Of a DNA stretch of 38,481 nt, positions 13,122-37,617 are shown piece by piece. Both the position numbers and the translations under genes were made by a program. The stretch comes from a virus. The stretch is from positions 1-38,481 of the IMG/VR virus record IMGVR_UViG_3300043395_003956. One strand, given 5' to 3'. How positions within the stretch are numbered: position 1 is the stretch's first letter; each line of letters begins with the position of its first letter. The notes beneath the pieces were generated by a model. That model was not told the DNA's origin. It did no database searches and saw only the letters and a list, made by a program, of their open reading frames with translations.

Positions 13122-13138
13122 GCTACAAGTCTTATGAC
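13122..13138 (+). promoter_or_regulatory. CTTATGAC promoter motif, copy 1 (late-type)
   Basis: The 81-base divergent gap 13102-13182 carries GCTACAAGTCTTATGAC at 13122-13138. The copy upstream of the RNA polymerase gene matches it at 15 of 17 positions. TACAAG follows a TG as in an extended -10 box, but no good -35 is seen at the usual distance. The following gene has AGGAG upstream of its ATG at 13183. The minus-strand promoter of the early cluster must lie in the same gap; I see only weak candidates for it. Confidence 0.6.
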
Positions 13139-13182
13139 TGTGTATATTGGGAACTGCAAACCGACTTTAGGAGCCACAAATC

Positions 13183-14274: not shown

Positions 14275-16123
14275 CCTTCAAACGTTCAAAGACGAGAAGG
14301 TGCATCCTCTCGTTCTTCTTCGCACGTACCTCCGACTCTTTGGCCCCGCGGCCTTAGAGTGGGAGCCATTCGTCGTAAAGAGGTCCGTAGAAGATCGGTT
14401 AAAGATTAATATTTCGCGAGTAAACTATCTCAAGTTGCTTGCAGCAATCACCGTTGCAAACCACGATAATTTTTGGAATTCATGGGAAACGTTCCATGCA
14501 GTGTCGCAAGCACTCGCAGGAAAAATCCCATCCGTGTCGCATATTGATAACCAGTCCGTTTCAGACTTTATGATGGCCGTCGATTCGGCCAATGCAATTC
14601 GGCAAGACTTAGGATCTTTGGGAGATTTGCCGGATTTCTCGGAAGAAGTACGCCGTTACATGGCTGCTCAGCTTCACGAATCTGGGATTTGGTATGTACC
14701 GGAGCCGTTGGAGTTTCTAAACCCGCTCATCTCCAAAGTTACGCAGATCTGCGGAGAATGTGGAAACGAAGAAGAGCCCAAAGAAGACGGGCTCTGTAGC
14801 TATTGCACGGATCGGTACAACACGGACAGCCTGCTGAAGTTTGAGCCCGATGATGACCTAAAGAAAAAATTCAATGGCTCAAAAGTAAAAGTGGTCACAA
14901 AACTTCCGACCGCCGGAGTTCAAAAGTCTTTACTCCGCGCACTATCGGAGGGCGGAGAGGTTCTTCGCGAAACCGCAGACGATATTTGCGCAGCTAAAAT
15001 TCTTGATGGACTTCGGGATCTTGAAGAGTATAGAACACAGATTCGAATAAGCAAGACTGCTGGTATCTCGGGCATATCAAAGTCAGTTGCTACTAACAAT
15101 AAAATAGATCGTTTTGACGATGAGGATAAACTAGAACCGAAAGAGCCGACCCCAGCTCCTTACTGGAAAAAAGCAATAAATCCAGTATCGGTAGGTGGGA
15201 CAGCGCTCATTGGTGCTGCGTTGCTCCGAAAACCGGGAGCGGCTGGAAAATTTTTGCAAACAGCAAAAGAAGTAGTAACCAAGCCAGTTACATCAATACG
15301 AAGGGGGCTCAGCACTGGGGCAAATTATGTTGGCCCAGGAGCCGACGAGTTTACTCGAGGAGCGGCGCAAAGTAAGCGCGTAGAGTTGATGTCGGATAGC
15401 CTTCGAAATCTTCAGACCTCGCTAAAGAGCCAAGCAGAGGCCGGAAGGCCGCTGATTGGAGACATAGATCAGTTTAAAGCGTTAGAGGGTGGTGAGCGTG
15501 GGTTAGGGACAGCTTCGGACTCTTTGCGCCGATCTGGATTTTTAAGTGCTGGCCGGCAAAAATTTACCAATGTACAGGTCGATGATGCCGCCGCAAAACG
15601 TCTTAACGATTTAATTCAAGAAATGGATACTGCGTCTGCAGCGGGTCAGCAGATAGATTATAATAAAATTCGTGGACTTTACGACGAATTTGGTCAACTG
15701 GCGCGCTCACAGCAACAGGCTGGAACCGCTAAGTTGAACAAAGGGCTTCTATACTACGCTCCTGGTGAGCGTGTCATGGAGGTTGGGGCTCCAGTGATGG
15801 GATTTGCGGGGGGATACACCGAAGACACTGACCCAGAAACTGGGCGTAAAAGAAGTACCGCAGAGCGGCTTGCACGTGGAGTTGCTATCGGAGGCGTAGC
15901 CGCTGGCACAGGTGCTTTGTTTGGAGGTAGAAACTTAGGGCTTTCTAAGACAAATTTATTCTCTGGTACAGGACGTTCCGGGTTTAGTGCTAAATCCCTG
16001 GTGCCTGCGGTTGGGGGTATGAGTCTCGGACAGACACTTGAAAACGTTGGGGCAGATGTTGCTGGTGCAGGCGCTCGTACCATTGATACCGCTTTTGGGC
16101 AGAAAAAGGATGAGCAATCATGA
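14261..16123 (+). CDS. zinc-ribbon and glycine-zipper virion protein
   Basis: 620 residues from the ATG at 14261, which avoids a longer overlap than the frame's earlier start at 14207. Residues 1-160 are helical. C164-x2-C167 and C179-x2-C182 make a zinc ribbon. Two glycine/alanine-rich hydrophobic stretches follow, about 306-322 (N-P-V-S-V-G-G-T-A-L-I-G) and 539-556 (R-G-V-A-I-G-G-V-A-A-G-T-G). From about 15030 codon use changes: AGA, ATA and AT-rich codons become common, unlike the first half. It ends in an ATGA overlap with the portal gene. The build suggests an internal or ejected protein that can contact membrane; the sequence shows no enzyme motif. Confidence 0.82.
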   Translation: MEVTDLQTFKDEKVHPLVLLRTYLRLFGPAALEWEPFVVKRSVEDRLKINISRVNYLKLLAAITVANHDNFWNSWETFHAVSQALAGKIPSVSHIDNQSVSDFMMAVDSANAIRQDLGSLGDLPDFSEEVRRYMAAQLHESGIWYVPEPLEFLNPLISKVTQICGECGNEEEPKEDGLCSYCTDRYNTDSLLKFEPDDDLKKKFNGSKVKVVTKLPTAGVQKSLLRALSEGGEVLRETADDICAAKILDGLRDLEEYRTQIRISKTAGISGISKSVATNNKIDRFDDEDKLEPKEPTPAPYWKKAINPVSVGGTALIGAALLRKPGAAGKFLQTAKEVVTKPVTSIRRGLSTGANYVGPGADEFTRGAAQSKRVELMSDSLRNLQTSLKSQAEAGRPLIGDIDQFKALEGGERGLGTASDSLRRSGFLSAGRQKFTNVQVDDAAAKRLNDLIQEMDTASAAGQQIDYNKIRGLYDEFGQLARSQQQAGTAKLNKGLLYYAPGERVMEVGAPVMGFAGGYTEDTDPETGRKRSTAERLARGVAIGGVAAGTGALFGGRNLGLSKTNLFSGTGRSGFSAKSLVPAVGGMSLGQTLENVGADVAGAGARTIDTAFGQKKDEQS

Positions 16124-18177
16124 ACGTCGTTACCAGTGAAGTCAATCGATTTAATCCCCGACCCGTATCTGCTGAAGGTGGCCGTGGATTTGGCATTCGC
16201 TATCCTTCACCGTTTTTTGATATTTCTCAGCAGTTTCTTCCCGCAAATCAGCACGAACTTCACAAATGGTGTCGCTACTACTTCTTAACTAATCCAGTAA
16301 TTAACGCGGCATGCTCAAAGATGGCCGAGTACCCAGTTACTCCGCTTGTATACGAGACAGAAGACCCGGAAGTAATGAAGCTCTACAAGAAGGTAGAGGA
16401 CCACCTGAAACTACGATCGTTTCAGGTAGAAGTTGGGCTTGATTACTTTGTGTACGGAAACGCGTTTGTCTCTGTATTTCTGCCATTTGAGAAGTACTTA
16501 ATCTGTAGCTCATGTGGGGCTCGTTACCGGGCGCAGACAAATCGTTTTCGCTACAAATGGCGTGATTCTCGATTCTATCTACATAAGTGCACTTGCGGAA
16601 AGGAGGGCTACGCTAAGCAGCACGACGTGTACATGCGCAGTTTTCGGCAGATCCGACTTGTGCGTTGGAATCCAGAGAACATCGACATTAAACATAATGA
16701 AATTACCGGGAAAACTAAATACTATTTCCGACTACCTAAAAGTGTGATTAACGATATTAAGCTGGGAGACTACGATGAGATCGAGTCAATCCCACTGGAG
16801 TTTCTGGAGGCTGCCAGAGCTGGAAAGTCGTTGCTCTTCTCCGAAGACAACCTGTACCATCTGAAGCGTCCGACAATCGCACAGAAAGACCAGGGCTGGG
16901 GAACTCCCCTTATCTTTCCGTTGCTCAAAGATGCGTTCTACCTTCAGGTCATGAAAAAGGCCAACGAAGCAATCCTCATGGAAAACATTGTTCCAATGCG
17001 GATGATCTTCCCTGGTCAGAATACCGGGGGGAACGAAGGTCCTTATGGATCGTACAACCTGACAAACTGGAAGCGGCGTGTTGATGAAGAGATCAACATG
17101 TGGAAACGGGACCACAACTACATTCCAGTCCTTCCGGTAAACATTGGCTTTCAGCAAATTGGCGGTCAGGGCCGTGCGCTACTGATGTACCAAGAGATGC
17201 GTCTTCTCGCCGAACAGATGCTTGCCGGTGCTGGAATTCCAGTAGAATTCATCTTTGGCGGGTTGCAGTGGTCAGGCTCAAGTACATCACTGCGCGCGCT
17301 CGAGAATATGTTTTTGGGGTACAACAAACAGCGGCATGAGCTCGTAAACATATTCATTATGGGTAGGATTGCATCATTTATGCAGTGGCCCAAGATCACC
17401 AGTCGGTTCGATAAGTTCCGTATGGCAGATGATCTTCAGAGAAGTATGTTCTACCTCCAGCTAAATCAAGCGCAGAAGATCAGTGATCACCGTCTTATGG
17501 AAGAATTGGGCGAGGACTTTGATCTTGAGTCAGACCGTATGGGTCGCGAGATTAAGAAGCAGTTGCAGTCCAACCGCCGGATGCAGGTCGCATCTGCGGA
17601 TATTCAGGGAGAGGCCCAGCTACGCACCTCCCGGTATCAGGCAAAGGCGCAGGCGCTCACAATGAAGGCGCAGGGCCAAGCGCAAATGGAAATGCAGCAG
17701 GAGCAAATGGCAGCCCAGCAGGCGCAGGCCGGTGCTCCCCAAGATCCAAACGCCCAGGCTGCCGCGCAACAACCGGGGGCGCAGCCGGAACAGCCTGCGC
17801 AAGATCAGGCACAGCAAACTCCAGGACTCCCAGAGGGAGCTACCGCTTACGACGAGAACGCGCAGACACCAAATCAAACTGCCCTTCCTACAGCGATGGC
17901 CGGAGCAGCTTCCCCACTCCAGATGGGCGCCGGAGGCGTGGATCTCCGCTACATCGCCCAACGGGCCGCATCATATTTACGTACACTAAAAAAAGAGCAA
18001 GGTGAGGGTGCGATGTATCAAGCCCTCCAGCAGATGCAGACAGAAAATCCATCTTTATACCAGTTGGTTGTCCAGCTGATGAATGACAAAGGATCTAAAA
18101 CAAACCCGTTAGATGCCGCACAAAATCCGGCGACAGACGGAACACCTCAAGCCGACCCAGGAAGGCGAATCGGCTGA
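16120..18177 (+). CDS. portal protein with zinc-binding insertion
   Basis: 685 residues. The first 500 fit a phage portal: an N-terminal helical segment with Y-Y-F-L-T-N-P-V-I-N-A, G-L-D-Y-F-V-Y-G-N-A-F-V-S-V (the typical YGNAF strand), W-N-P-E-N-I-D-I, L-Y-H-L-K-R-P, G-W-G-T-P-L-I-F-P, and the helix G-I-P-V-E-F-I-F-G-G. A zinc site is inserted at C129-x2-C132 and C157-x-C159, uncommon in portals. Residues about 490-600 are Gln/Ala-rich low complexity, and a helical end follows. Portals form the dodecameric ring through which DNA enters and leaves the head. ATGA coupling to the gene before it. The TerL gene lies far downstream rather than next to it. Confidence 0.9.
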   Translation: MNVVTSEVNRFNPRPVSAEGGRGFGIRYPSPFFDISQQFLPANQHELHKWCRYYFLTNPVINAACSKMAEYPVTPLVYETEDPEVMKLYKKVEDHLKLRSFQVEVGLDYFVYGNAFVSVFLPFEKYLICSSCGARYRAQTNRFRYKWRDSRFYLHKCTCGKEGYAKQHDVYMRSFRQIRLVRWNPENIDIKHNEITGKTKYYFRLPKSVINDIKLGDYDEIESIPLEFLEAARAGKSLLFSEDNLYHLKRPTIAQKDQGWGTPLIFPLLKDAFYLQVMKKANEAILMENIVPMRMIFPGQNTGGNEGPYGSYNLTNWKRRVDEEINMWKRDHNYIPVLPVNIGFQQIGGQGRALLMYQEMRLLAEQMLAGAGIPVEFIFGGLQWSGSSTSLRALENMFLGYNKQRHELVNIFIMGRIASFMQWPKITSRFDKFRMADDLQRSMFYLQLNQAQKISDHRLMEELGEDFDLESDRMGREIKKQLQSNRRMQVASADIQGEAQLRTSRYQAKAQALTMKAQGQAQMEMQQEQMAAQQAQAGAPQDPNAQAAAQQPGAQPEQPAQDQAQQTPGLPEGATAYDENAQTPNQTALPTAMAGAASPLQMGAGGVDLRYIAQRAASYLRTLKKEQGEGAMYQALQQMQTENPSLYQLVVQLMNDKGSKTNPLDAAQNPATDGTPQADPGRRIG

Positions 18178-18179
18178 TG

Positions 18180-18434
18180 CTATCGCACAGCATCAGACTT
18201 TCTCTTCCTGGGCGGCTCTACGGGGATCCCTTCGTATAGCTGCGCTAAGATGTCAGAAGTGTGATCAATAAAGCACTTTTCGTGATAAAGTGCCTCACTT
18301 CCTAACGTGGCAAACGCTTCATCTAAGAGATCCCACGAATTAGGGCGCCTTCGCGCTATGTGCCGCGCTAGGCTAATAATTCGTTCTCCGCGATCTACGG
18401 CGGCACCACACCGGTCACAGTAATACCGCATCAT
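18180..18434 (-). CDS. tiny CxxC/HxxC zinc-binding protein
   Basis: 84 residues (or 83; the start is a tandem ATGATG). C6-D-R-C9 and H51-x2-C54 make a treble-clef-like metal site, with a basic end (P-R-K-R-K). The gene is on the minus strand within a plus-strand late region; its stop is 3 bases from the portal stop. Its start overlaps the stop of the next upstream minus-strand frame as ATGA, which supports both. Function unknown. Its position directly before the phage RNA polymerase gene makes a transcription factor or polymerase-binding peptide an attractive guess, without proof. Confidence 0.68.
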   Translation of the reverse strand: MMRYYCDRCGAAVDRGERIISLARHIARRRPNSWDLLDEAFATLGSEALYHEKCFIDHTSDILAQLYEGIPVEPPRKRKSDAVR

Positions 18435-18586
18435 GGGGGAAGAACCAAGATGAGGATACTGGATGAGTCACCACACGAATCACAGCTTCCTGAAGTCCAG
18501 AAGGGCCGTGGTCTGTATGTTGACGCGCATGCACTACAAAGCCAAATCGCCGCATCAGGGATTGCCGGGCAATCCCCACATTCCAT
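18431..18586 (-). CDS. tiny protein with three CxxC pairs
   Basis: About 51 residues from the ATG ending at 18586, with AAGG and GGAG just upstream. Three pairs are visible: M-E-C-G-D-C, C-S-A-C and C-D-S-C, the pattern of a rubredoxin-like or zinc-ribbon fold. The frame is open to 18787, but the upstream part runs through strong hairpins and reads as low-quality protein. A Cys-containing stretch (R-E-F-C-P-L-I-A-Q-R-C) just before the ATG could still be coding if a non-ATG start is used. The stop is coupled (ATGA) to the following zinc protein. Short length leaves doubt. Confidence 0.5.
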   Translation of the reverse strand: MECGDCPAIPDAAIWLCSACASTYRPRPFWTSGSCDSCGDSSSILILVLPP

Positions 18587-18688
18587 TACTCCGCACCTTT
18601 GCGCGATCAGTGGACAAAACTCTCGAAGAGTATCTTCCTCATCCCGCTTAAAAAAGGTTGGAGTAGCATGGGGAATATTGGGCAAACC

Positions 18689-18839
18689 CCCAGCCTCGGC
18701 ACGAAGCCGAGACTGGAGGCGTCCCTTATTCTTCGGCCTCAAGAGCGTCCTCAAGGACATCTGAGGCCGACTGGATGGCCGCCACAAGAGCGGCCATCCA
18801 GAATATTACCACTTTGAGAGCCCGTCGGTGTCGACGGGC
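18689..18839. terminator. cluster of four strong hairpins between portal and RNA polymerase units
   Basis: Stretch 18587-18925 has no convincing gene. It holds: CTCGGC/GCCGAG (18695-18700 with 18706-18711, extended outward by CAG/CTG); TCGGCCTCA/TGAGGCCGA (18733-18741 with 18762-18770) enclosing GTCC-TCAA-GGAC; CTGGATGGCCGC/GCGGCCATCCAG (18771-18782 with 18790-18801, 12 perfect pairs); and GCCCGTCG/CGACGGGC (18820-18827 with 18832-18839, GTGT loop). None is followed by a T-run. They would insulate the portal unit from the polymerase promoter at 18869. A structured non-coding RNA is an alternative. Confidence 0.65.
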
Positions 18840-18868: not shown

Positions 18869-18906
18869 TTGCCGAGGAGTTAGATCTCGGCTACAATACT
18901 TATGAC
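18869..18906 (+). promoter_or_regulatory. promoter of the RNA polymerase unit with CTTATGAC copy 2
   Basis: TTGCCG (18869-18874), a 17-base spacer and TACAAT (18892-18897) make a fair sigma-70-type promoter. Overlapping its 3' end is CTTATGAC (18899-18906), part of the 17-base block at 18890-18906 that matches copy 1 at 15 positions. The site could thus be read by the host enzyme first and by the phage enzyme later. The polymerase ATG is at 18926 with GGGGA seven bases upstream. An ATG inside the motif (18902) is in frame but has no ribosome site. Confidence 0.6.
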
Positions 18907-18925
18907 CTGCAAATGGGGACCTTTT

Positions 18926-21900
18926 ATGCCTAATCTGAATCCGATTGAGAGCCACAAACTGATGGTTCAGCGCGCGAAGGAAGCGATCGCGTCGCACTTT
19001 CCAATCGAAGGCAGTAAGCATCGGCTGGAGTTGGTTCGGGTCGAACTTGAAGAGGATAGCGCTACTGGCGCGTCTCAGTTCAACTCTGGCAATTATGAAA
19101 GCCAGATGGATGCCCGGCTCAATGATCGAACCTGGGGCCCAGATATTATTGGGGTATTTCGTCTTATCGATAAAGCAAGCGGAAAAGTATTAGACGAAAA
19201 ATCGCGGACTCTTGGAAAGATCCCAAAGATTACGACTCGCTATAGCTACATTGTTAACGGGAATGAGATGCAGCTGGACAGTGTATTCCGGCTGAATCCT
19301 GGCGCGTACCATGCAGAGGCACAAAACGGCGATCTTCTTGCCAAGTGGAACGTTGCGGCAGGTAGCCGTGTAGGGTCATTTGATATTTACATTGAACGCC
19401 GGGATCCAAAGAAGCTCGGCCTTATGACAATGGATGTCAGTAGCAGCGGTACATCCTCCGTTCAAATTCCTATTTATCCCATTCTAAAGGCGATGGGAAT
19501 TGACGATGGACAAATCAAAAATGCACTCGGAGAGAAGATCTACGTCATCAATAGGGATAAGAGTTCTCCTACAGATGTTTTAAAATTTCATAAGGCACTT
19601 GAGGGGAGAAAGAAGGACGCAGACTACACTCCTCCTTCTACTGCCGACGCAGCTAAGTTTACACGCGAAGTTTTTGAGTCTGCGGAGGTTAGCCCCCAGA
19701 CCATGAAGGCAGCGTTTGGAAAAGAATTTGATCGGATTACTGGTGACGCGCTTCTTTTGTCTGCAAAGAAGTTGGTCGACATTTCGCGTGGTGACGTTCC
19801 TGAAGATGATCGGCAGTCTTTGGCGAACAAGCGTCTATTCGGCGCAGAAGACTTCGTCTACGAAGAGTTGACCAAGGGTAAGACGATCTATGCGTTGACA
19901 CGCAAAATCCGTAATAACGTCGATCGCAAAGATAAGATCCAGGACATCATTCCGGCGTCAAATGCCGGTTATGGCGCAGCGATCCTTAAGCCGTTCAAGG
20001 CTGGACAGCTTCCGACGCAGACCAACCCTCTTCAGTTTGTATCGAACCACACCAAGACAACAATCCTTGGCGCGGAGTTTGGAGGTATCAAAGGCGAGAA
20101 TGTCAACTTGATGGAAGACAAGTTGATTAACCCAAGTCATCTGGGACTTCTTGATCCTCTGCAGACGCCTGAAAGCTCAACAACGGGTATTCATCTACAC
20201 GTTCCTCTTGGCGCAAAAAAGGTCGGTCACGATCTTATGGCGCAGGTCGTAAATGTCCGGACAGGTAAAGTCGAAAGTAAATCTGCGGCGGATTTAGAGC
20301 GCGCTGTTGTAGCTTACCCAGATCAGGTCAAGATCGATAAGAAGCCCGATGGGTCCGTGAAGGTGACTCCACTTTCGGCTGATGTGGTCGTATACGACAA
20401 GGACCGCAATACAACGAAGCGTCCCTGGAAAGACGTCGAGTATGTCCTTCCATCTGCCAAGTTGCTTTTTGCGGTGAGCGCAAACCTGATTCCGTTTGTC
20501 CAGAATGACAACGGAAACCGCGCGATGATGGCGGCAAAGCATCAAGAGCAGGCGGTCGGACTAAAGCAACGCGAGGCCCCTCTTGTGCAAACTCAGGCGG
20601 GCGGCGGTGCTTCATATGAGTCGTTAGTTGGAAACATGGCGGTTGTTTCGGCAAGTGCTGATGGGATTGTGACTGAGGTCACAGAATCTCGGATCGTCGT
20701 CACTGGGACTGATAAAAAGAAGTACGTTCACTCGATTTATAATAACTATCCCTTAAATGGAGCAAAACATATGCTCCATTCGGAGCCTGTAGTAAAGAAA
20801 GGAGACCAGGTACGAAAAGGCCAACTCCTTGCTGATTCAAACTTTACCAAGGGTGGAAAGCTCTCCCTCGGAACAAACCTGCGAGTCGCATACATTCCGT
20901 ATCGTGGGTACAACTTCGAAGACGGTGTTGTTATTTCAGAATCAGCGGCTCAGAAACTTGTGTCCAGCCACTTGCACTCTGCCGAGGCAGAGATGCATCC
21001 AAATGTGGTTGTAAACAAGAAAATGTGGAGACAGTACGCAGGTCCTGTAAAGGCAACTCCAGAGATCCTGCAAAAGTTGGATGATGATGGCGTTATTCGG
21101 GTAGGGCAGCGAGTAGAGCCTGGCGATGTCTTGATTGCGAAGTTACAAAAGCAGTCATTGTCCAAAGATACCGAAGATATCCGGCGTAGACTGAAGGGCG
21201 CCGTCCAAGACTACACAGATTCAGCAGTGCGTTGGGACCACGAATACGGTGGAGAAATTGCGCGGGTCGTGAATAACGGGCGTAAAATTGCCGTGTTCAT
21301 TCGAACTGAACAGACGATGGAGGTGGGCGACAAGCTCTCTGGTCGGCACGGAAATAAGGGCATTGTTACTAAAATTCTGCCCGATGATAAGATGCCCAAG
21401 GATAAAGACGGAAATCCCGTACATGTCCTTATGTCCCCTGCGGGCATTCCCTCCCGTATGAATCCTGGGCAGGTCCTTGAAACGGTTGCCGGGAAAATTG
21501 CGCTAAAGACTGGAAAGCCTTTTGTTGTAGACAACTTTAGTGCAAATACCGACTACTCTGCACTCGTCAAAGCAGAGATGAAGAAAAACAACGTTTCTGA
21601 TACTGACGAGCTATTTGATCCCGAAACTGGGGAAAGTCTTGGGCAAGTTCTGACAGGACACCAGTACATTTTGAAGCTGGACCACCAAGCAGAGAAGAAG
21701 ATTTCTGCGCGATCCGGTGGTTTTGGATACGCATACAAAACCACGGGAGAGGCTTCTCAGGGCTCTGGCCTTGGAGAAGGCGGTCAGCGCATTGGTGGCT
21801 TGGACACATACACGTTGCTTGCGCATGGAGCGAAGCAAAACCTTCGCGAGATGCAAACATACAAGTCTGATCGGGAACAAGCAGAGGATGTATGGACCCG

Positions 21901-24900
21901 GATCATGCGCGGTGAACGTCCCCCTCCTCCGAAAGTTCCTCGTTCGATGGAGCAGTTCACACACTACATGCGCGCAATGGGTGTGTACTCGGAACGCAAA
22001 GGTCGCGAGTATTCGCTAATGCCGATGACGGATAAGCAAACCGTCGCGCAGAGCTCAGGCGCGCTCGCCTTCCCGGAAAAGACTCTTGCTGCCAAGGGTT
22101 CTTTAACAAAGGAAGAACGGGGCGGCCTTTTTGATAGAACAAAGACCGGGGGCCTTGAGGGAACGAAGTGGACTCATATGACATTGGGGGTTCGGATTCC
22201 AAACCCCATGTTCGAAGAGCCCATTCGATTGCTTCTTCAGATGCCTAAGCCTGAGTTTCAAAAGCTGTTGACTGAATCAGGAGCCGTTGGAAAGAAATCA
22301 GGCTTTGCGGTTATTGAGCAAAAGTTGAGAGAAATCAACGTAGATCAGGAGCTTAAGGTTGCTGAGAAGCGGCTATCAGAAGTTTCTGAAAACGAACTCA
22401 ATGTAGCGTACAAGCGCGTACGGTATTTACGGGCGCTCAAAGAACTTGGAGTTACGCCTGTCGATGCGTACACGAATGAGGTTCTCCCAGTTCTTCCTCC
22501 GTCGTTGCGTAGAGTGAGCATCGGATTTGACGGAACGCAGATCATTGATCCTGCCAACAAAATGTACGCAATTATTGGGCAAATGGTTAAGCAGCTAGAT
22601 CAAGCTGAAAAAGAAAAAATGCCGGTAGGCGAGATTCAGAAGATTCAAGCGCAAATCTACGAGACTACGAAAGCACTTCGTGTCTCAGGTATGCAGATGG
22701 AAGGTAAACAAGTCCCGAGCTTGATGGATAAGCTAACGGGCCTCAAGCAGCCAAAGCAGTCGTTCTTCCAATCCGGGGTACTTGGTAAGCGGCAAGATCT
22801 GTCGGGCCGCTCGGTCATCACGCCAGATCCAGAAATGCCACTTGATGAAGTCGGTGTTCCTCGCGAAATGGCGATGGAAATGTACAAGCCGTTTGTCATC
22901 AAAGAGCTCTGGAGAAACATGGGTCGCGCGAACTCTCCTGGAGAGGCGCGACTCATGATTAAGAAGAATCATCCTGCTGCTAATGAGGCACTCGAGCGCG
23001 TTGTTCGTGACCGTCCCGCATTGATGAAGCGAGATCCCGCGCTGCACATGTTCTCAATTTTGGCGTTCCGACCGCGTCTGGTTGAGGGCAAGTCTGTCAA
23101 AATCCATCCCCTTGTGACTGGTGGATTCAACGCAGACTTCGACGGCGACACGATGGCGCTGTACGTCCCCATTACAGACGGCGCCGTGCAGGAAGCGAAG
23201 AACATGCTTCCTTCTAAGAACCTTTTCTCACCGACAAGCGGTGGGCTGATGGTAACGCCCAGCCAGGACTCGGTACTTGGAATTTTCCAGGCGACTGAAT
23301 GGGGCAAGCCCGTGTCAGGCCAGTACACCGAGGAGGAGGCAGTTCGGCTGCTGAAAGCTGGAAAGTTGAAGTCCTACAACGTTATTAATGTAAAGGGCTA
23401 CAACAAGCCTACGACTGCGGGTCGGTTGATGATCAATGCGACGCTCCCTGCACAGTTTAAGGGTGATCAGGATCTTTTGTACGATCCAAATTTCCGCATG
23501 GCAAAGGGCGGTATGAAGCGATTTGCGACCCGTATCGCCAGAGCTGAGCCAGATGAGTTCTCCAGAATGATTGATGACTGGAAGACTCTCGGATTTGGTC
23601 TCGCCTTTAAGAACGGATCCAGCGTTAAGCTGGACGACTTCCATGATGGATATAAACTTCGCGACGAAGTTTTGAAGAAGTACAAGAAGGAAGAGGACGC
23701 GATTCGGAAGGGATCGGGGTCAATCAAGGATAAGGATGACAAGATTGTCGCGCTTTACCAAAAGGCACAAAAAGAACTGAAGCAGGTAGGTGAAGCGCGC
23801 TACAACTCCACACTCAACAATGGGATGTGGGATTGGGCACGCTCTGGAGCCAAGGGCGACTGGAACCAGTTTGGCCAGATGGTCATGGGTCCGATGCTTG
23901 TTCAGGATCCAATGAATCAAACAGTTCCGTTCCCGATTACGAAGTCCTTTGGAGAGGGCCTGCCAGTTTCGCAGTATTACGCGTCTCTCCATGGTGCGCG
24001 TAAGGGAACGATTGACCGTGCCTCTGCAACTGCAAAGCCCGGTGCGCTTACAAAGGAACTCATCAACACCGTCATTGATAATACCATTAAATCAAAAGAC
24101 TGCGGGACAATTCGCGGAGCGCTCTTATCATCAATGGAGTCCGATATTGAGGGTCGCTTCCTTGCAGGAGAAGTCCCCCTGAAGGGAGGCGAGACAATTG
24201 CCAAGGGCACGCTGATCACTCCACAAATTCGATCCAAGATTAAAACGGATGGCCCCAAAAAAGTTCTTGTTCGGTCACCGCTGTACTGCAACGAGGTCAA
24301 GGGAATCTGCGCGACCTGCTATGGACTCAACGAGCGTGGATCGCTGTACACGGTAGGTACAAATGTTGGAATTATCGCAGGACACGCGCTGGGAGAACCA
24401 ATCACCCAGATGCAGATGCGAACGTTCCATACCGGCGGTGTCGGCGGGACCAGTGGAGTTGGTGACTACTTCACAGCAGCGGAAGATCTATTTAAGGTTC
24501 CGAAGAAGCTAAAGGGCTCTGCAACGCTGTCTACGGTTTCTGGAAAGATCGAAAAGATCGAGAATGACGCCCTCGGCGGAAAGATTGTTACGATTGCGGG
24601 CAAGCCGCATGTGGTTCCATTCACGAACCCACTGCTTCCCTCAATTCGCGTAGGAGAGGAAGTCGAAAAGGCCGATGCACTTTCAGAGGGCAGAAAGAAC
24701 CCACACGATATTCTTACTGTCACCAAAAACATGAGCGCAGTCCGCACCCACTTGGCAGACTCGCTGAACGATCTATACGCCGAAACAACTGGAAATGAGC
24801 GGCGCAGGAATATCGAGACAGTTATTCGCGCAATGACGGACTTGACGCGGATTGATGATTCGGGTGATGATCATATGTATCTACGCGGGCAACTTGTTCC

Positions 24901-25282
24901 AATGTCCGAGATCGAACGGAAGAACAAGGAACTGCGCGCAATGAACAAGCGCGAGATCAAGCATACGCCCCAGCTCAAGGCAATGAATAAGATGCCGCTC
25001 GCAGGTCAGGAGGACTGGATGGCACGTTTGAACTTCCAGCGCCTCCAGGAAACGTACGTTGAGGGGGCCGCGCAGAACTGGAAGTCAGACATCCATGGGC
25101 ACCCAATCGCAGGAATTGCGCATGGAGCTGAGTTTGGGCTCGAACCCCCAGGTTCCGTAAAGCTTCCCAATGCCCCGGCCATTCCTGAACGCATGTCAAA
25201 CATCCCGAAAGCCCGGCCCCCCGGAAACCATAGTCCGTCTTTGCCCTCGCAGAACAGCCCTGGCTTCTTTTCGTTCCTTTAG
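18926..25282 (+). CDS. rpoB-rpoC: single-chain RNA polymerase: fused beta and beta-prime subunits
   Basis: 2118 residues. Beta part, about 1-1030: I-P-K-I-T-T-R and I-V-N-G-N-E, Q-T-N-P-L near 365, N-P-S-H-L-G-L-L-D-P-L-Q-T-P-E, L-I-P-F-V-Q-N-D-N-G-N-R-A, G-Y-N-F-E-D-G-V, and G801-D-K-L-S-G-R-H-G-N-K-G. Beta-prime part, about 1060-2118: G-K-R-Q-D-L-S-G-R-S-V-I, catalytic N1402-A-D-F-D-G-D1408 with all three Asp, bridge helix H-G-A-R-K-G at 1689, zinc site C1726, C1788, C1795, C1798, and trigger loop near 1819-1838 (G-E-P-I-T-Q-M-Q-M-R-T-F-H-T-G-G). The N-terminal beta-prime zinc ribbon is absent. E. coli beta plus beta-prime total about 2750 residues, so this is a trimmed fusion. No frameshift or stop divides it. 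It should transcribe phage genes. No alpha, omega or sigma is visible here. Confidence 0.96.
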   Translation: MPNLNPIESHKLMVQRAKEAIASHFPIEGSKHRLELVRVELEEDSATGASQFNSGNYESQMDARLNDRTWGPDIIGVFRLIDKASGKVLDEKSRTLGKIPKITTRYSYIVNGNEMQLDSVFRLNPGAYHAEAQNGDLLAKWNVAAGSRVGSFDIYIERRDPKKLGLMTMDVSSSGTSSVQIPIYPILKAMGIDDGQIKNALGEKIYVINRDKSSPTDVLKFHKALEGRKKDADYTPPSTADAAKFTREVFESAEVSPQTMKAAFGKEFDRITGDALLLSAKKLVDISRGDVPEDDRQSLANKRLFGAEDFVYEELTKGKTIYALTRKIRNNVDRKDKIQDIIPASNAGYGAAILKPFKAGQLPTQTNPLQFVSNHTKTTILGAEFGGIKGENVNLMEDKLINPSHLGLLDPLQTPESSTTGIHLHVPLGAKKVGHDLMAQVVNVRTGKVESKSAADLERAVVAYPDQVKIDKKPDGSVKVTPLSADVVVYDKDRNTTKRPWKDVEYVLPSAKLLFAVSANLIPFVQNDNGNRAMMAAKHQEQAVGLKQREAPLVQTQAGGGASYESLVGNMAVVSASADGIVTEVTESRIVVTGTDKKKYVHSIYNNYPLNGAKHMLHSEPVVKKGDQVRKGQLLADSNFTKGGKLSLGTNLRVAYIPYRGYNFEDGVVISESAAQKLVSSHLHSAEAEMHPNVVVNKKMWRQYAGPVKATPEILQKLDDDGVIRVGQRVEPGDVLIAKLQKQSLSKDTEDIRRRLKGAVQDYTDSAVRWDHEYGGEIARVVNNGRKIAVFIRTEQTMEVGDKLSGRHGNKGIVTKILPDDKMPKDKDGNPVHVLMSPAGIPSRMNPGQVLETVAGKIALKTGKPFVVDNFSANTDYSALVKAEMKKNNVSDTDELFDPETGESLGQVLTGHQYILKLDHQAEKKISARSGGFGYAYKTTGEASQGSGLGEGGQRIGGLDTYTLLAHGAKQNLREMQTYKSDREQAEDVWTRIMRGERPPPPKVPRSMEQFTHYMRAMGVYSERKGREYSLMPMTDKQTVAQSSGALAFPEKTLAAKGSLTKEERGGLFDRTKTGGLEGTKWTHMTLGVRIPNPMFEEPIRLLLQMPKPEFQKLLTESGAVGKKSGFAVIEQKLREINVDQELKVAEKRLSEVSENELNVAYKRVRYLRALKELGVTPVDAYTNEVLPVLPPSLRRVSIGFDGTQIIDPANKMYAIIGQMVKQLDQAEKEKMPVGEIQKIQAQIYETTKALRVSGMQMEGKQVPSLMDKLTGLKQPKQSFFQSGVLGKRQDLSGRSVITPDPEMPLDEVGVPREMAMEMYKPFVIKELWRNMGRANSPGEARLMIKKNHPAANEALERVVRDRPALMKRDPALHMFSILAFRPRLVEGKSVKIHPLVTGGFNADFDGDTMALYVPITDGAVQEAKNMLPSKNLFSPTSGGLMVTPSQDSVLGIFQATEWGKPVSGQYTEEEAVRLLKAGKLKSYNVINVKGYNKPTTAGRLMINATLPAQFKGDQDLLYDPNFRMAKGGMKRFATRIARAEPDEFSRMIDDWKTLGFGLAFKNGSSVKLDDFHDGYKLRDEVLKKYKKEEDAIRKGSGSIKDKDDKIVALYQKAQKELKQVGEARYNSTLNNGMWDWARSGAKGDWNQFGQMVMGPMLVQDPMNQTVPFPITKSFGEGLPVSQYYASLHGARKGTIDRASATAKPGALTKELINTVIDNTIKSKDCGTIRGALLSSMESDIEGRFLAGEVPLKGGETIAKGTLITPQIRSKIKTDGPKKVLVRSPLYCNEVKGICATCYGLNERGSLYTVGTNVGIIAGHALGEPITQMQMRTFHTGGVGGTSGVGDYFTAAEDLFKVPKKLKGSATLSTVSGKIEKIENDALGGKIVTIAGKPHVVPFTNPLLPSIRVGEEVEKADALSEGRKNPHDILTVTKNMSAVRTHLADSLNDLYAETTGNERRRNIETVIRAMTDLTRIDDSGDDHMYLRGQLVPMSEIERKNKELRAMNKREIKHTPQLKAMNKMPLAGQEDWMARLNFQRLQETYVEGAAQNWKSDIHGHPIAGIAHGAEFGLEPPGSVKLPNAPAIPERMSNIPKARPPGNHSPSLPSQNSPGFFSFL

Positions 25283-33513: not shown

Positions 33514-34012
33514 CGACTACTCGGATGGAGTGCCCGCTCCGGATCGGATATTCCGAGCGAAGGGTCTCCATGCTGACCTTCAAATACTGCTGTACCATCT
33601 CTTCTTGGCTTTCGCCATCCCTACGTTCAAGATCTCCGAACGCGGTTTCGTGCGTTAGGACTGGGACATTAACGCGCCCACCCTGCGCACGAACATCAAT
33701 CCAGCTCCAACCCCGGAGCCCATGCCACTCATCTATCGTCACTGAGTGCCCAGAAACTTTGCCGTAGTCCTCTGCATTGAGGCCTTTCAGACCGAGGACC
33801 AATCGGCGGGGCTTGCCAGTTGTCTCGATTTTTTCCCCGAACTTTTGTGTTCTGGCTTTGACATAGGCAAACAACTCAGCGGGGTCATCCCCTACCATAC
33901 GGAGAGTGGTTGCCGAAACGAGGGTGTCTGTATCGATCATATGAAGAACCAGGGCGTATCCTGCTTCTTCTCCGCGAATTTGACGAATTTCATAGCCAGA
34001 GACGACTTGCAT
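33440..34012 (-). CDS. hypothetical protein
   Basis: 190 residues, not recognised. Mixed alpha-beta: G-Y-A-L-V-L-H-M-I-D-T-D, a helix (P-A-E-L-F-A-Y-V-K-A-R), R-R-L-V-L-G-L, W-S-W-I-D-V-R, and a C-terminal helix rich in E/Q/M. The ATG is preceded by GGAGG with a 7-base spacer, one of the best ribosome sites here. It is transcribed away from terL and sits between two plus-strand late units, so it may belong to another expression class. No known motif. Confidence 0.78.
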   Translation of the reverse strand: MQVVSGYEIRQIRGEEAGYALVLHMIDTDTLVSATTLRMVGDDPAELFAYVKARTQKFGEKIETTGKPRRLVLGLKGLNAEDYGKVSGHSVTIDEWHGLRGWSWIDVRAQGGRVNVPVLTHETAFGDLERRDGESQEEMVQQYLKVSMETLRSEYPIRSGHSIRVVDGIYRIVETAKSRVDPTRSEELRA

Positions 34013-34032
34013 CGGTTATCCTCCTCAATTAA

Positions 34033-34065
34033 TGCTCATCGTGAGCAAAGTTCTTATGACGGAGG
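34033..34065 (+). promoter_or_regulatory. terL promoter region: dyad, CTTATGAC copy 3 and ribosome site
   Basis: In the 57-base divergent gap, TGCTCA-TCG-TGAGCA (34033-34047) is an exact dyad that could be an operator. CTTATGAC follows at 34053-34060, directly abutting GGAGG (34061-34065) of the terL GTG start. If the motif sets a start within or just after it, the message would have an extremely short leader. Confidence 0.5.
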
Positions 34066-34069
34066 TTGC

Positions 34070-37000
34070 GTGAATTTTTTAGATCCTAAGTTTCTTGGTT
34101 CCTGGGAATATTCAGAGCCAAGGCAGGATGAAGAACGGATATCTGAAGATGCTTTACGAGACGCACAGATACCGCTGACTCCGTCTCAGTTTATTGAAAC
34201 CACAATGATGATGCCCAACCCGCATTCCCGTAAGCTAGAAAACTTCTCATTTGCTGAACGCCAATATCTACGACAAATCTACGACATTCAAGCCCCACGC
34301 GTCCTCCTTATGTGCGGAAGACAGGTGGAGAAGACAGTCCATGAGGACGAGCTGGTTCTTCTTTCGACGGGCAGGCATGTCCGAATCAAAGATGTCCAGC
34401 TTGGAGATCGCCTTGTTTGCCTCAATACCGACGAGGTAGCGGATGGCGTCGAGCTCGGGACTGGGCACCTGGCCACCTCGTCTGATGTGACCTGGAAGTC
34501 CGCCAGGTACAACAAACCTTGTGTTCGCGTTTGTACGAGGCAGGGACATAAAGCGGTGCTCGCTACGACGCACCCCATCCGTGTATGGGGAGGATGGCGT
34601 ACTGCAGGAGACGTGCGTGTAGGAGACCGAATTGCAGTTGTTCGACGTGCGGGGGAGTTCCACGGCCTCGCGCAGTCGGACTCCCGTGTCAAGCTCACAG
34701 CGTTCATGCTTGGAGATGGCCACTGCTCTCCGTCCGGATTGTCATTTACAAACGCGACGGATGTAGTCCTGGCGGACTTTATCGAAGGGCTGACCCAAGA
34801 GGGAATGACCTACGGGGTCTCAGACAAGGTAGGAACAGAAGCCGTAGCTCTCCGCCTCCCAAGGTACCGAGCCCAGAAGCTGTACGACTGGATTGGGGAG
34901 GATGGCCTTCTGGGGAAGACCTCCTACACCAAGTCCATCCCGGAGTGGGTATTCCATCTTCCGCGACAACAGACAGCTATGTTCTTGAATCGGTTGTGGG
35001 CGACTGACGGGCATGTAAAGCAAAATACCGGCTCAAAGTGGTCCATCGAGTACTGCTCGATGTCGCACGAGATGATTCGGCAGGTTCAGGCGTTGCTGTG
35101 GAAGTTCGGGGTGCCTTCTTCTATTCGAAAGAACTGGCCTGCCATTTACAAAAGGCGCGGAGAGGATGTCACTGCGTACATCCTTCGCGTAGAGACACAG
35201 GAAGGGGTTCGGACCTTCGTGCGCGAAATCGGAGCCCTCGGGAAAATTGAACAACAAAATATTCCCAGCTGGGAATCGAGCTCCAATCGTGACACGTACC
35301 CAGAGGAGGTGACCCAGCTTGTCCGGGACATCTACAACTCTGTGCGTCCCACGAAGGGAGAGAGGACCTTGCGCGCCGCTGGAATCGAGCGCCTTCCTCG
35401 GAAGAAGTACACACTTACCCGGAGGAAACTCGAGGAATTCGTCATCTTTTTTGAAGGGGATGTACGGTACGACCAAGAGCGAGTAGCTCTACTGCGCGCG
35501 CATCTCCATTCTGATATTTATTGGGATGAAGTTGAAGAAATCGTAGATGAGGGAGACTGCTGGTGCTTCGACCTGACAGTGCGCGGGCACCATAACTTTG
35601 TTGCAGGAGCGATCTTCACGCACAACAGCACTACATTAGGAAACAAGACACTTTCATACGCGTGTTTGATCCCGCACTTTCGCATCCTCTACGTCTCCCC
35701 ATCTAGCCAGCAGACAAAGGAGTTCTCCAAGACGCGCCTACGAGAGCCCCTTGAGACCTGTCCTGATCTCAGAACTTGGTTTCCCGGGCACCTCACCGAC
35801 AACGTTTTCGAAAAGAAAGCGATCAACCGAAGTGAGATCAAACTTCGGTATGCGTTCCTCAACGCAGACAGATGCCGCGGCCTCTCGGCAGATCTTATTT
35901 GTATGGATGAGTTTCAAGATCTACTTCTCGATAATATTCCGGTTATTGAGGAAGCAGCGTCACATAGTCCGTTTAAATGGTTTATTTACAGTGGTACTCC
36001 AAAAAGTTTAGATAATCCTATTCAAAGATACTGGGACGCGTACTCAACACAGAATGAGTGGGCAGTTCCTTGTGAGCGGCACGGATTCAACAACAACCCG
36101 GGAACTTGGCATTGGAATATATTGGGAGAACGAAACATTGGAATTACTGGGCTGTCTTGTGACAAATGCGGAGAGCTAATTCGTCCAGATCATCCTATGG
36201 CGCAGTGGGTTAAAACTGGAAATCCAAATCCTAAATTTGATATTTTTGAAGGGTTCAGAATTCCGCAGTTGATGGTGCCATGGCTCGAGTGGAGTAATAT
36301 TCTCACTAAATATAATCAGTATCCTCGTGCAAAGTTCTACAACGAGGTTCTCGGTGCAAGTTTTGACTCCGGACAACGCCCCCTGACTGAAGGGGATGTA
36401 CAGTCGTGCTGCGACCCAGATTTCTCTCTTAAGATGGAGAAGCTAAAAGAATTTTTGCCTAAACTTCGAGGAAAGCAGGTTTACGCGGGAATCGACTGGG
36501 GCCAGGACTCGAACAACTCGTACACGATCATCTTCATCGGATCGTATATCGATGGTGCATTCCGCATTGTCTTTGCGCATCGATTCTCGGGCGCCGAGGC
36601 GGAGCCAAAAGAGCAAATTGAAAAAATTAAGAAGCTCTTGACCGCTTTCCAGATCACGCGGGTAGGAGTTGACTACGGTGGCGGCTATTGGCCAAATGAT
36701 GAGCTTCTTCGCACCTATGGATCGCAAAAGATTGTGCGATACCAGTACTCAACGCCTAAGACGATTATGAAGTTTGACGCGGCAAAGGGTCGATTTTTAA
36801 TTCATCGCTCTGAAGTGATGAGCGCAGTTTTTAACGCCATTAAACGGAGAGTGTTTAAGTTCCCAAAATGGTCTGAGTTTGGAAATCCCTTTGGGTCCGA
36901 CATGCTTGCTATTTTTTCAGAATACAATGAAAGAACGCGCATGACTGAGTATAAAAAGGCGCACAACACCACCGATGATAGTTTTCATGCTTTACTACTT

Positions 37001-37087
37001 TGTTTCATTGTTTCGATGATTGATCACCCTCGCCCAGATATCATCGTACCAAGTGCTAAAATTGATCGAGAACTCGACACAGACTGA
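34070..37087 (+). CDS. terL: terminase large subunit, interrupted by an intein
   Basis: 1005 residues before splicing, 574 after. The start is GTG at 34070 with GGAGG four bases before it; the frame continues upstream but reads as the antisense of another gene. Spliced ATPase domain: G-R-Q-V-E-K then S-T-T-L-G (P-loop, residues 83-90), L-I-C-M-D-E-F-Q-D (Walker B with catalytic Glu), Y-S-G-T-P-K (motif III). A zinc-like C-x2-H and C-x2-C pair follows (C-E-R-H, C-D-K-C). Nuclease domain: A-G-I-D-W-G-Q-D-S, V-G-V-D-Y-G-G-G-Y-W, and T-T-D-D-S-F-H as the acidic triad. The protein pumps DNA into the head through the portal and cuts it. The gene has its own promoter and an 18-bp hairpin at its end. 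Confidence 0.95.
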   Translation: MNFLDPKFLGSWEYSEPRQDEERISEDALRDAQIPLTPSQFIETTMMMPNPHSRKLENFSFAERQYLRQIYDIQAPRVLLMCGRQVEKTVHEDELVLLSTGRHVRIKDVQLGDRLVCLNTDEVADGVELGTGHLATSSDVTWKSARYNKPCVRVCTRQGHKAVLATTHPIRVWGGWRTAGDVRVGDRIAVVRRAGEFHGLAQSDSRVKLTAFMLGDGHCSPSGLSFTNATDVVLADFIEGLTQEGMTYGVSDKVGTEAVALRLPRYRAQKLYDWIGEDGLLGKTSYTKSIPEWVFHLPRQQTAMFLNRLWATDGHVKQNTGSKWSIEYCSMSHEMIRQVQALLWKFGVPSSIRKNWPAIYKRRGEDVTAYILRVETQEGVRTFVREIGALGKIEQQNIPSWESSSNRDTYPEEVTQLVRDIYNSVRPTKGERTLRAAGIERLPRKKYTLTRRKLEEFVIFFEGDVRYDQERVALLRAHLHSDIYWDEVEEIVDEGDCWCFDLTVRGHHNFVAGAIFTHNSTTLGNKTLSYACLIPHFRILYVSPSSQQTKEFSKTRLREPLETCPDLRTWFPGHLTDNVFEKKAINRSEIKLRYAFLNADRCRGLSADLICMDEFQDLLLDNIPVIEEAASHSPFKWFIYSGTPKSLDNPIQRYWDAYSTQNEWAVPCERHGFNNNPGTWHWNILGERNIGITGLSCDKCGELIRPDHPMAQWVKTGNPNPKFDIFEGFRIPQLMVPWLEWSNILTKYNQYPRAKFYNEVLGASFDSGQRPLTEGDVQSCCDPDFSLKMEKLKEFLPKLRGKQVYAGIDWGQDSNNSYTIIFIGSYIDGAFRIVFAHRFSGAEAEPKEQIEKIKKLLTAFQITRVGVDYGGGYWPNDELLRTYGSQKIVRYQYSTPKTIMKFDAAKGRFLIHRSEVMSAVFNAIKRRVFKFPKWSEFGNPFGSDMLAIFSEYNERTRMTEYKKAHNTTDDSFHALLLCFIVSMIDHPRPDIIVPSAKIDRELDTD
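34334..35626 (+). mobile_element. intein with LAGLIDADG homing endonuclease in terL P-loop
   Basis: 431 residues in frame, inserted exactly between Lys and Ser of the terminase P-loop. N-terminal block: T1-V-H-E-D5-E-L-V-L-L with I-K-D-V-Q-L-G-D. Block B: L-A-T-T-H80-P. Two LAGLIDADG helices: L-T-A-F-M-L-G-D-G (121-129) and F-L-N-R-L-W-A-T-D-G (217-226). Blocks F/G: C-F-D-L-T-V at 411, H-H-N-F, and the final T-H430-N431 followed by Ser+1. Residue 1 is Thr, where most inteins have Cys or Ser. Splicing is expected because the terminase cannot work without it. The endonuclease can copy the intein into empty alleles. Confidence 0.93.
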
Positions 37088-37609: not shown

Positions 37610-37617
37610 CTTATGAC
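37610..37617 (+). promoter_or_regulatory. CTTATGAC motif, copy 4
   Basis: The 8-base word recurs in the 25-base gap between two minus-strand genes, with AT-rich sequence before it (GCAATTAT) like other copies. Read in plus orientation it would drive transcription antisense through the HTH gene toward the plus-strand gene at 38313. It overlaps the stop codon of the HTH gene, so chance is a real alternative. Confidence 0.35.

Follow-up and report, generated by a model that had tools for sequence, protein, structure and literature searches.

The viral window analysed here (the whole stretch of 38,481 nt) carries one gene (18926..25282, + strand) whose 2118-aa product is predicted from sequence and structure models to be the complete catalytic core of a cellular two-barrel DNA-dependent RNA polymerase, i.e., beta and beta' fused into one chain. 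What is special here is the near-complete cellular-type beta-beta' set within a single chain. We consider it probable (roughly two chances in three) that this chain acts as an alpha-less core together with a phage sigma, is packaged, and serves early transcription; this reading draws on relatives of the window and on analogy to Salmonella phage Arash. The first-pass annotation had proposed a cellular-type core working as one chain, and this is now backed by the domain content, residue conservation, two models of good confidence and the fused beta of more than 100 relatives.

The open reading frame check returned 2118 codons without interruption, and Pfam places beta and then beta' signatures along this frame, as had been claimed. 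An ATG at 18902 provides a second possible start upstream of 18926; the relatives start at the equivalent of 18926 (MPNLNP/MSNLNP), and 11 homologs are full-length. On the same chain we find Rpb2_6 (residues 576-932, E 3.5e-65) and Rpb2_7 (952-1021), followed by Rpb1_2 (1287-1428, E 9.3e-31), Rpb1_3 (1432-1571) and Rpb1_5 (1678-1843, E 1.1e-24). Given Pfam and the AlphaFold models, the beta half spans residues 1 to ~1020 (18926..21985, +) and the beta' half residues ~1031-2118 (22016..25279, +), with the final 41 residues predicted to be disordered. The fusion junction (residues ~1017-1030; 21974..22015, +) was placed by alignment to the C-terminus of separate bacterial beta and the N-terminus of separate bacterial beta', and the linker comprises ~10 residues.

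The catalytic elements named by the first-pass annotation could all be located by alignment, and all lie on the + strand. The double-psi barrel of beta shows the motif GDKLSGRHGNKG (residues 801-812; 21326..21361), whose two basic residues Lys803 and Lys811 are invariant in 39 aligned sequences. In the beta' barrel, the DxDGD metal-binding loop reads NADFDGD (residues 1402-1408; 23129..23149), and its three Asp are invariant among the aligned relatives. The bridge helix (residues ~1684-1722; 23975..24091) aligns to E. coli and is helical in the model, while Cys1726, 1788, 1795 and 1798 of the second zinc site (24101..24319) align to the bacterial Cys. The trigger-loop region (residues ~1815-1850; 24371..24475) contains QMRTFH at ~1830-1835, whose Phe1834 and His1835 do not vary across 35 fused sequences. 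As noted before, beta' lacks its N-terminal zinc ribbon, both in the window protein and in 60/60 aligned phage polymerases of the clade, whereas the ribbon is kept in 16/16 bacteria and also in the phages Carin-5 and YerA41.

Structure prediction compared with bacterial polymerase points the same way, i.e., the top PDB matches are bacterial beta for the model of residues 1-1062 (pLDDT 84.4) and bacterial beta' for that of residues 919-2118 (pLDDT 86.8), with TM values of ~0.7-0.78 of both half models against the bacterial beta and beta' chains. With regard to size, the chain is ~630 residues shorter than beta plus beta' of E. coli (1342+1407 = 2749), which agrees with an earlier estimate of about 600. 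The accompanying term "minimal" does not carry over to B. subtilis (1193+1199), whose sum exceeds the fusion by only ~275 residues such that the term is a relative one.

The same fusion occurs at 71-89% identity in 11 other IMG/VR contigs. These and further independent contigs exclude a frameshift or assembly join between the two halves, a concern that had been raised beforehand. The complete fusion is present in more than 50 other viral contigs, either as a single frame of 2015-2270 aa or as a longer one with probable inteins, and in more than 100 contigs beta is joined to all or part of beta', i.e., at least to its start. A scan with beta alone as query found no free beta in loci that are not cut by a contig end; the beta-beta' linkage is the only feature that is never lost in untruncated loci. 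On the other hand, beta' is split in one sub-clade formed by Arash and the Vibrio phages D69, D181 and D148. The number of intact single-frame contigs suggests that selection maintains the whole chain, and the fusion is a mark of an entire, mostly uncultured phage lineage.

In a tree with 16 bacteria as outgroup (archaea and eukaryotes were left out), the phage clade stands apart from the bacterial enzymes with support 100. Host contamination could be ruled out, since the proteins of the phages group in a separate clade and portal and terminase genes lie alongside. The portal gene (16120..18177, +), identified by profile search, is directly upstream of the polymerase, as it is in nearly all relatives; its profile search reaches the annotated Arash portal (gp204) plus 74 loci. 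A GTDB genome search with the alignment, from which the outgroup was taken, returned bacterial rpoBC operons and indicated no host.

Cellular RNA polymerases require alpha and omega for assembly. Searches for alpha (PF01193) and omega (PF01192) gave no match in 16 long relatives, while 13/14 and 14/14 control genomes were positive. This favours the earlier suggestion that the enzyme may do without alpha. A search of the relatives' genomes for sigma-like partners, also suggested earlier, revealed a conserved sigma70-like protein (Sigma70_r3, E 3.4e-10) in 16/21 related records, Arash gp10 included. The Sigma70_r2 profile alone missed the divergent sigma of the nearest relatives, which was recovered with Sigma70_r4 and then with the protein itself as query. 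The gene is located elsewhere in the relatives' genomes (in a 164-kb relative at L116:1474-2307, - strand), outside the fragment covered by the window, such that a sigma partner of the window phage is suggested by its relatives.

A candidate promoter box GGTCATAA (18900..18907, - strand) lies in the intergenic region between the polymerase and a small-protein gene, and its core is kept at the same intergenic place in nine aligned sequences. The bipartite motif is strongly enriched across the genomes of relatives when compared with the means of scrambled controls (G001: 22 vs 2.0; G002: 20 vs 0.3; G015: 24 vs 2.2; G008: 12 vs 1.8). Within the window alone, its 4 copies are not significant (scrambled mean 1.3, max 6). 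It is absent in the relative G016, and D69, Arash and G009 show a motif of different form. Many copies of the enriched motif precede genes far from the structural block.

The first-pass annotation considered the polymerase possibly packaged, which gains support by homology. In mass spectrometry of purified Arash virions, Gp206 (beta fused to the N-terminal part of beta'), which its authors annotated as plain beta, accounts for 3516 spectra, the most of any protein, while Gp216 (beta'C) has 1210 and the sigma Gp010 467 (PMC10585845). Divided by length, this corresponds to 2.3, 2.0 and 2.0 spectra per residue for Gp206, Gp216 and Gp010, which is compatible with a ~1:1:1 stoichiometry. The particle preparation comprised 116 phage proteins, metabolic enzymes among them, and carry-over into the particles is possible according to the authors (PMC10585845).

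In the preferred reading, one chain comprising beta and beta' would tether the active-site barrels 1:1 and might thereby render the alpha dimer and omega, the assemblers of cellular enzymes, dispensable. The chain would team up with the phage-encoded sigma70-like protein and may read promoters that combine a downstream box of the GG(T)CATAA type with an A-tract located 16-17 bases before it. Core and sigma would be synthesized late and then packaged (the Arash homolog was detected in virion preparations), could enter with the DNA and would transcribe the early phage genes. That a packaged two-protein holoenzyme, i.e., a chain without alpha, omega and zinc ribbon that is joined by a sigma70-family factor of the phage and reads private promoters, drives the early transcription of the whole lineage is put forward more tentatively, as a proposal that may well hold but might as easily fail.

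Among the alternatives, the best placed, which we still regard as unlikely, is a non-virion enzyme for middle or late genes, with early genes left to the host enzyme and the polymerase in Arash particles being carry-over from the lysate. Such carry-over is mentioned by the Arash authors themselves (PMC10585845), P23-45 and phiKZ-type phages own separate non-virion enzymes (PMC10770324, PMC7598289), and the gene is located among late virion genes. However, Gp206, Gp216 and sigma are abundant in Arash with similar values per residue, Gp206 even ranking highest of the virion proteins, each record encodes just a single polymerase of this kind, and many of the enriched motif copies stand before genes distant from the structural block. 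A search for a T7-type polymerase as second enzyme gave no match, nor did it match any control.

Improbable is a partly host-dependent hybrid, in which the chain would continue to rely on alpha, omega or sigma of the host. The predicted beta and beta' folds are near the bacterial ones, and we count in its favour that the tryptophan pair that melts the host -10 box is replaced in the phage sigma when compared with the sigma70 sequence. The phiKZ-like phage enzymes, in contrast, do not need alpha (PMC7598289). Furthermore, hosts differ among the relatives (Salmonella, Vibrio), and a conserved phage sigma exists. Least probable of all is a post-translational cut into beta and beta' that renders the fusion functionally meaningless: the beta' split of some members implies that continuity past the barrel is not essential and a protease might come from virion assembly, but the linker is very short, the beta-beta' linkage is never lost in untruncated loci, and the natural fusions of Helicobacter and Wolbachia function unprocessed.

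In these bacterial rpoB-rpoC fusions, the beta C-terminus is linked to the beta' N-terminus; unlike the window fusion, they have full length, retain the zinc ribbon and work with alpha and omega. Single-chain two-barrel polymerases were already known from crAss-like phi14:2 (gp66), YonO and P23-45 (PMC10770324, PMC7481178), and the literature on phage beta-beta' fusions yielded only crAss-, YonO- and P23-45-type enzymes plus killer plasmids. The phage enzymes phi14:2 gp66 and P23-45 gp64/gp96 share the single chain with two barrels, and gp96 is a virion enzyme for pre-early gene transcription; yet they are highly diverged and fall into another major clade of the published dendrogram (PMC10770324), whereas the bacterial domain set is nearly complete in the window fusion. 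An enzyme of crAss/YonO/QDE-1 type, with little or no similarity to cellular beta and beta' profiles, is ruled out by the Pfam E-values of 3.5e-65 and 9.3e-31.

The phiKZ/AR9-type virion and non-virion polymerases are two-barrel enzymes without alpha or omega as well, one of them packaged, but consist of four or five chains without a recognisable sigma (PMC7598289, PMC7824862), while the window lineage is fused and has a sigma. The point at which they divide beta', behind the catalytic barrel, is seen again in the Arash-type members. Arash, D69, D181 and D148 share the clade, the portal neighbour, the linkage of beta with the N-terminal portion of beta', the related sigma and the lack of alpha with the fused relatives, but encode beta'C as a separate gene cut after the catalytic barrel and show only ~30% identity. 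In D181, beta is cut once more, adjoining a homing endonuclease gene.

The fused clade probably overlaps the mReC phages, i.e., environmental Caudovirales from IMG/VR that encode multi-subunit polymerases (Weinheimer and Aylward 2020, PMC7481178), whose beta and beta' align readily to their cellular counterparts and group separately from the bacterial ones. The text of that paper differs in treating beta and beta' as subunits, mentions fusion for crAssphage alone, and contains no alpha, sigma or virion evidence (PMC7481178). The mReC terminase family PF03237 has matches in Arash and in part of the relatives, with 9/16 relatives matching and 3 of them above cut-off. The mReC capsid family PF07068 had no match in 16 records, in a search without any control match.

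It has long been asked how much of an RNA polymerase is really needed. With a naturally occurring single chain that can be aligned to bacterial enzymes at residue level and comes with its own sigma, this becomes directly testable in vitro. A natural two-part sigma-dependent polymerase is also on offer and, if the more tentative proposal of a packaged two-protein holoenzyme is true, it would be the simplest known of the cellular, sigma-dependent type. A packaged enzyme would probably let the virus begin reading its own genes with its own machine. The fusion can further serve to mark this large lineage of phages, most of which are uncultured. Within the lineage, one chain, two and three pieces form an evolutionary series in which the beta-beta' linkage persists and beta' is cut, in part where jumbo phages and cyanobacteria split it.

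Beyond the polymerase, an Rfam search of the window gave no matches and a tRNA scan found none. Two small genes on the - strand lie between portal and polymerase, i.e., one for a Cys-containing protein conserved in 8 relatives (18180..18434) and one for a Cys-rich protein, in divergent orientation to the polymerase gene and conserved in 13 relatives (18431..18787). The terminase large subunit (33746..37087, +) is interrupted by an intein (Intein_splicing, LAGLIDADG_3) and matches phrog_675 (E 2.3e-54) and GpA_ATPase rather than PF03237.

The polymerase gene forms a single uninterrupted frame from an ATG at 18926 to a stop ending at 25282 (+, 2118 codons), as the first-pass annotation had proposed. 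The window covers the whole 38,481-base IMG/VR record, which represents part of a larger phage genome. Pfam places the beta domains Rpb2_6 (E 3.5e-65) and Rpb2_7 before residue 1022 and the beta' domains Rpb1_2 (E 9.3e-31), Rpb1_3 and Rpb1_5 (E 1.1e-24) after residue 1286 of the same chain, and only about 10 residues separate beta from beta'. In a search of solved structures, residues 1121 to about 2058 match bacterial beta' chains (E about 1e-100 to 1e-120). An alignment of the chain to 16 bacteria, E. coli among them, confirmed the anatomy read earlier from the sequence, i.e., the NADFDGD loop, bridge helix, second zinc site (four cysteines) and trigger loop (carrying Phe-His), and also revealed the two beta-barrel lysines. 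The beta' N-terminal zinc ribbon is indeed missing, as had been noted: CxxC occurs in that stretch in 0/60 clade members, while 16/16 bacteria and the phages Carin-5 and YerA41 have it. The gene encodes an intact, conserved and complete RNA polymerase core in one chain.

We carried out the overlay on bacterial enzymes with AlphaFold models of two overlapping segments. The model of residues 919-2118 (pLDDT 86.8, pTM 0.83) matches bacterial beta' with TM 0.70-0.78, and that of residues 1-1062 (pLDDT 84.4, pTM 0.78) matches bacterial beta with TM of about 0.7 and a high rmsd of about 12 A, which is probably due to a domain swing, beta' being missing from the model. The C-terminal 41 residues are predicted to be disordered.

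In a protein scan of IMG/VR, another 11 contigs carry the full-length fusion, with identities of 71-89%. Among the relatives analysed in a profile scan (best 80 of 162) and a second scan with beta alone from divergent members (best 80 of 407), we observe three architectures: a single chain of 2015-2270 aa (up to 2962 aa with probable inteins inserted); beta joined to the N-terminal piece of beta' (beta'N, about 1450-1530 aa) plus a separate C-terminal piece (beta'C, about 600 aa); and beta carrying about 100 residues of beta', with two further pieces after it. Within the best 80 of the second scan, each uncut beta frame runs on into at least the beginning of beta'; the three 'beta only' loci are all cut by contig ends. 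Probable inteins, i.e., large in-frame insertions, are seen in the polymerase genes of loci L037, L042, L056, L061, L065, L066, L073 and L096. Their positions are conserved: three in beta (around residues 414, 678 and 841), one right at NADFDGD and one at the trigger loop.

Two maximum-likelihood trees (78 and 103 rows; quick search, LG+G4, bacteria as the only outgroup) both unite all fused and semi-fused phage polymerases in one clade apart from bacteria (support 100). The polymerases with split beta' form one clade (support 100). A branch of the first tree sets the fully fused members apart from the rest; in the second tree L064, which has a long branch, is placed basally, though only weakly supported (66). 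The long branch leading to Carin-5 and YerA41 is of unsure placement. A single change between 'full' and 'split' suffices on the tree, and the simplest reading of these sequences would be an ancestral fusion, followed by one cut of beta' and then a second.

The two-piece form, cut after the catalytic barrel, is found in Salmonella phage Arash and the Vibrio phages D69, D181 and D148. Enzymes of the phiKZ type and of cyanobacteria are reported to share a split at this same position (PMC7598289). Beta is one piece in D69, but in D181 a homing endonuclease gene separates it into two genes. The Arash metal loop reads AADYDGD, and in the alignment Arash gp206, deposited as subunit beta, continues through the N-terminal half of beta', catalytic barrel included. 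Several records filed as phage, among them OR844998, OR846602 and AFYI01000006, carry bacterial rpoB and rpoC and seem to be pieces of host chromosome.

With regard to partners, the suggestion that the enzyme may work without alpha agrees with the 16 long records, in which neither alpha (PF01193) nor omega (PF01192) was matched, the controls being detected in 13/14 and 14/14 genomes; each of the 16 shows one polymerase of this type. The proposed search for a sigma-like partner was run in relatives, the gene lying beyond the reach of the window. The 164-kb relative G001 encodes a sigma70-like protein of 277 aa (Sigma70_r3 E 3.4e-10, Sigma70_r4 weak), with homologs in 16/21 records, including Arash gp10 (E 1.4e-21) and a D69 protein; the other five records are incomplete or unassessed contigs. 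In the alignment, a conserved core (...YDPsrGa..sthv..nlk...RfvkkhQN..RI.E...) precedes region 3, followed in the fused clade by a region-4-like helix-turn-helix. The sigma-like gene of G013 (L212, 144807-145535) has one in-frame TGA. A phage sigma co-occurs with the one-chain core, and no alpha or omega genes were found in the 16 long records.

That the polymerase is possibly packaged gains support from Arash, and extends to the window phage by homology. Tandem mass spectrometry of purified Arash particles gave 3516 spectra for Gp206, most of any protein, 1210 for Gp216, 467 for the sigma Gp010, 1333 for the major capsid protein and 877 for the portal (PMC10585845). Gp206 is by alignment beta plus beta'N, and Gp216 is beta'C. 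Spectra per residue amount to 2.3, 2.0 and 2.0 for Gp206, Gp216 and Gp010, compared with 4.3 for the major capsid protein and 1.5 for the portal. These values fit a 1:1:1 complex present above portal level, though spectral counts are a coarse measure, the preparation contained 116 phage proteins and its authors name carry-over as an alternative (PMC10585845). In the proposed mechanism, the putative polymerase would be injected and serve early genes; tethering of beta to beta' would replace alpha in assembly, and sigma would bind to the fused core at its flap and clamp helices and would read a two-box promoter. The Arash helicase gp217 adjoins beta'C (L014, 17268-20491) and matches the polymerase in abundance in the particles, with 1148 spectra or 2.4 per residue (spectra from PMC10585845). 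A weakly related SF2 helicase lies at 11327-12703 (-) in the window, and such a helicase is a possible polymerase partner.

A candidate promoter class emerges from the intergenic 7-mers, of which GTCATAA is most over-represented in G001 (15 vs 0.9 expected) and GGCATAA in the related record G002 (8 vs 0.4). An A-tract lies 16-17 bases upstream of these GG(T)CATAA-type sites, a spacing equal to that of a two-box sigma promoter. We compared the number of distinct cores with an A-tract to 40 scrambled cores: 22 in G001 (scrambled mean 2.0, max 6), 20 in G002 (0.3, 3), 24 in G015 (2.2, 7), 12 in G008 (1.8, 5) and 10 in G012 (1.6, 7). The window alone has 4 (1.3, 6), which is not significant, and core plus A-tract is not enriched over scrambled cores in G016, Arash and D69. 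The motif is GGGTATAAG with A-tract in G009, GTTATAAGTAATATG in D69 and a weak GGTATAA in Arash. Candidate sites in relatives are L215-L223 (G001), L230-L236 (G002), L245-L252 (G015) and L253-L262 (G009); those in the window, all (-), are 13132-13139, 34054-34061, 37611-37618 and 18900-18907, the latter intergenic beside the polymerase and kept in position in 9 aligned sequences. The boxes may instead be T4-late-like or host-read promoters.

Single-chain two-barrel enzymes (crAss phi14:2 gp66, YonO, P23-45, killer plasmids) and alpha-less phage enzymes (phiKZ, AR9) are established (PMC10770324, PMC7281927, PMC7598289), and phages with cellular-like beta and beta' were described as multi-subunit RNAP-encoding Caudovirales, mReC (PMC7481178). 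A 2024 source mentions in one sentence cellular-clade 'derivatives with fused DPBB domains', which shows that the general idea had already been in circulation. In the main texts covered, we found no report of a full cellular-type beta-beta' in one phage chain, nor of lineage-wide beta-beta' linkage or a matching sigma in phages.

An iterated profile built from the portal of the window (16120-18177) picks up 74 loci as well as the annotated Arash portal, and the polymerase almost always lies immediately downstream of the portal. Between the two genes, the window encodes two small Cys-containing proteins (18180-18434 and 18431-18787, -), conserved in 8 to 13 relatives. The minus-strand half carries a family A DNA polymerase, DnaB-like helicase, primase, RecA-like protein, uracil-DNA glycosylase and an SF2 helicase. 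The terminase large subunit (33746-37087, +) contains an intein with a LAGLIDADG homing endonuclease domain, and several of the polymerase-gene insertions match this intein in profile searches.
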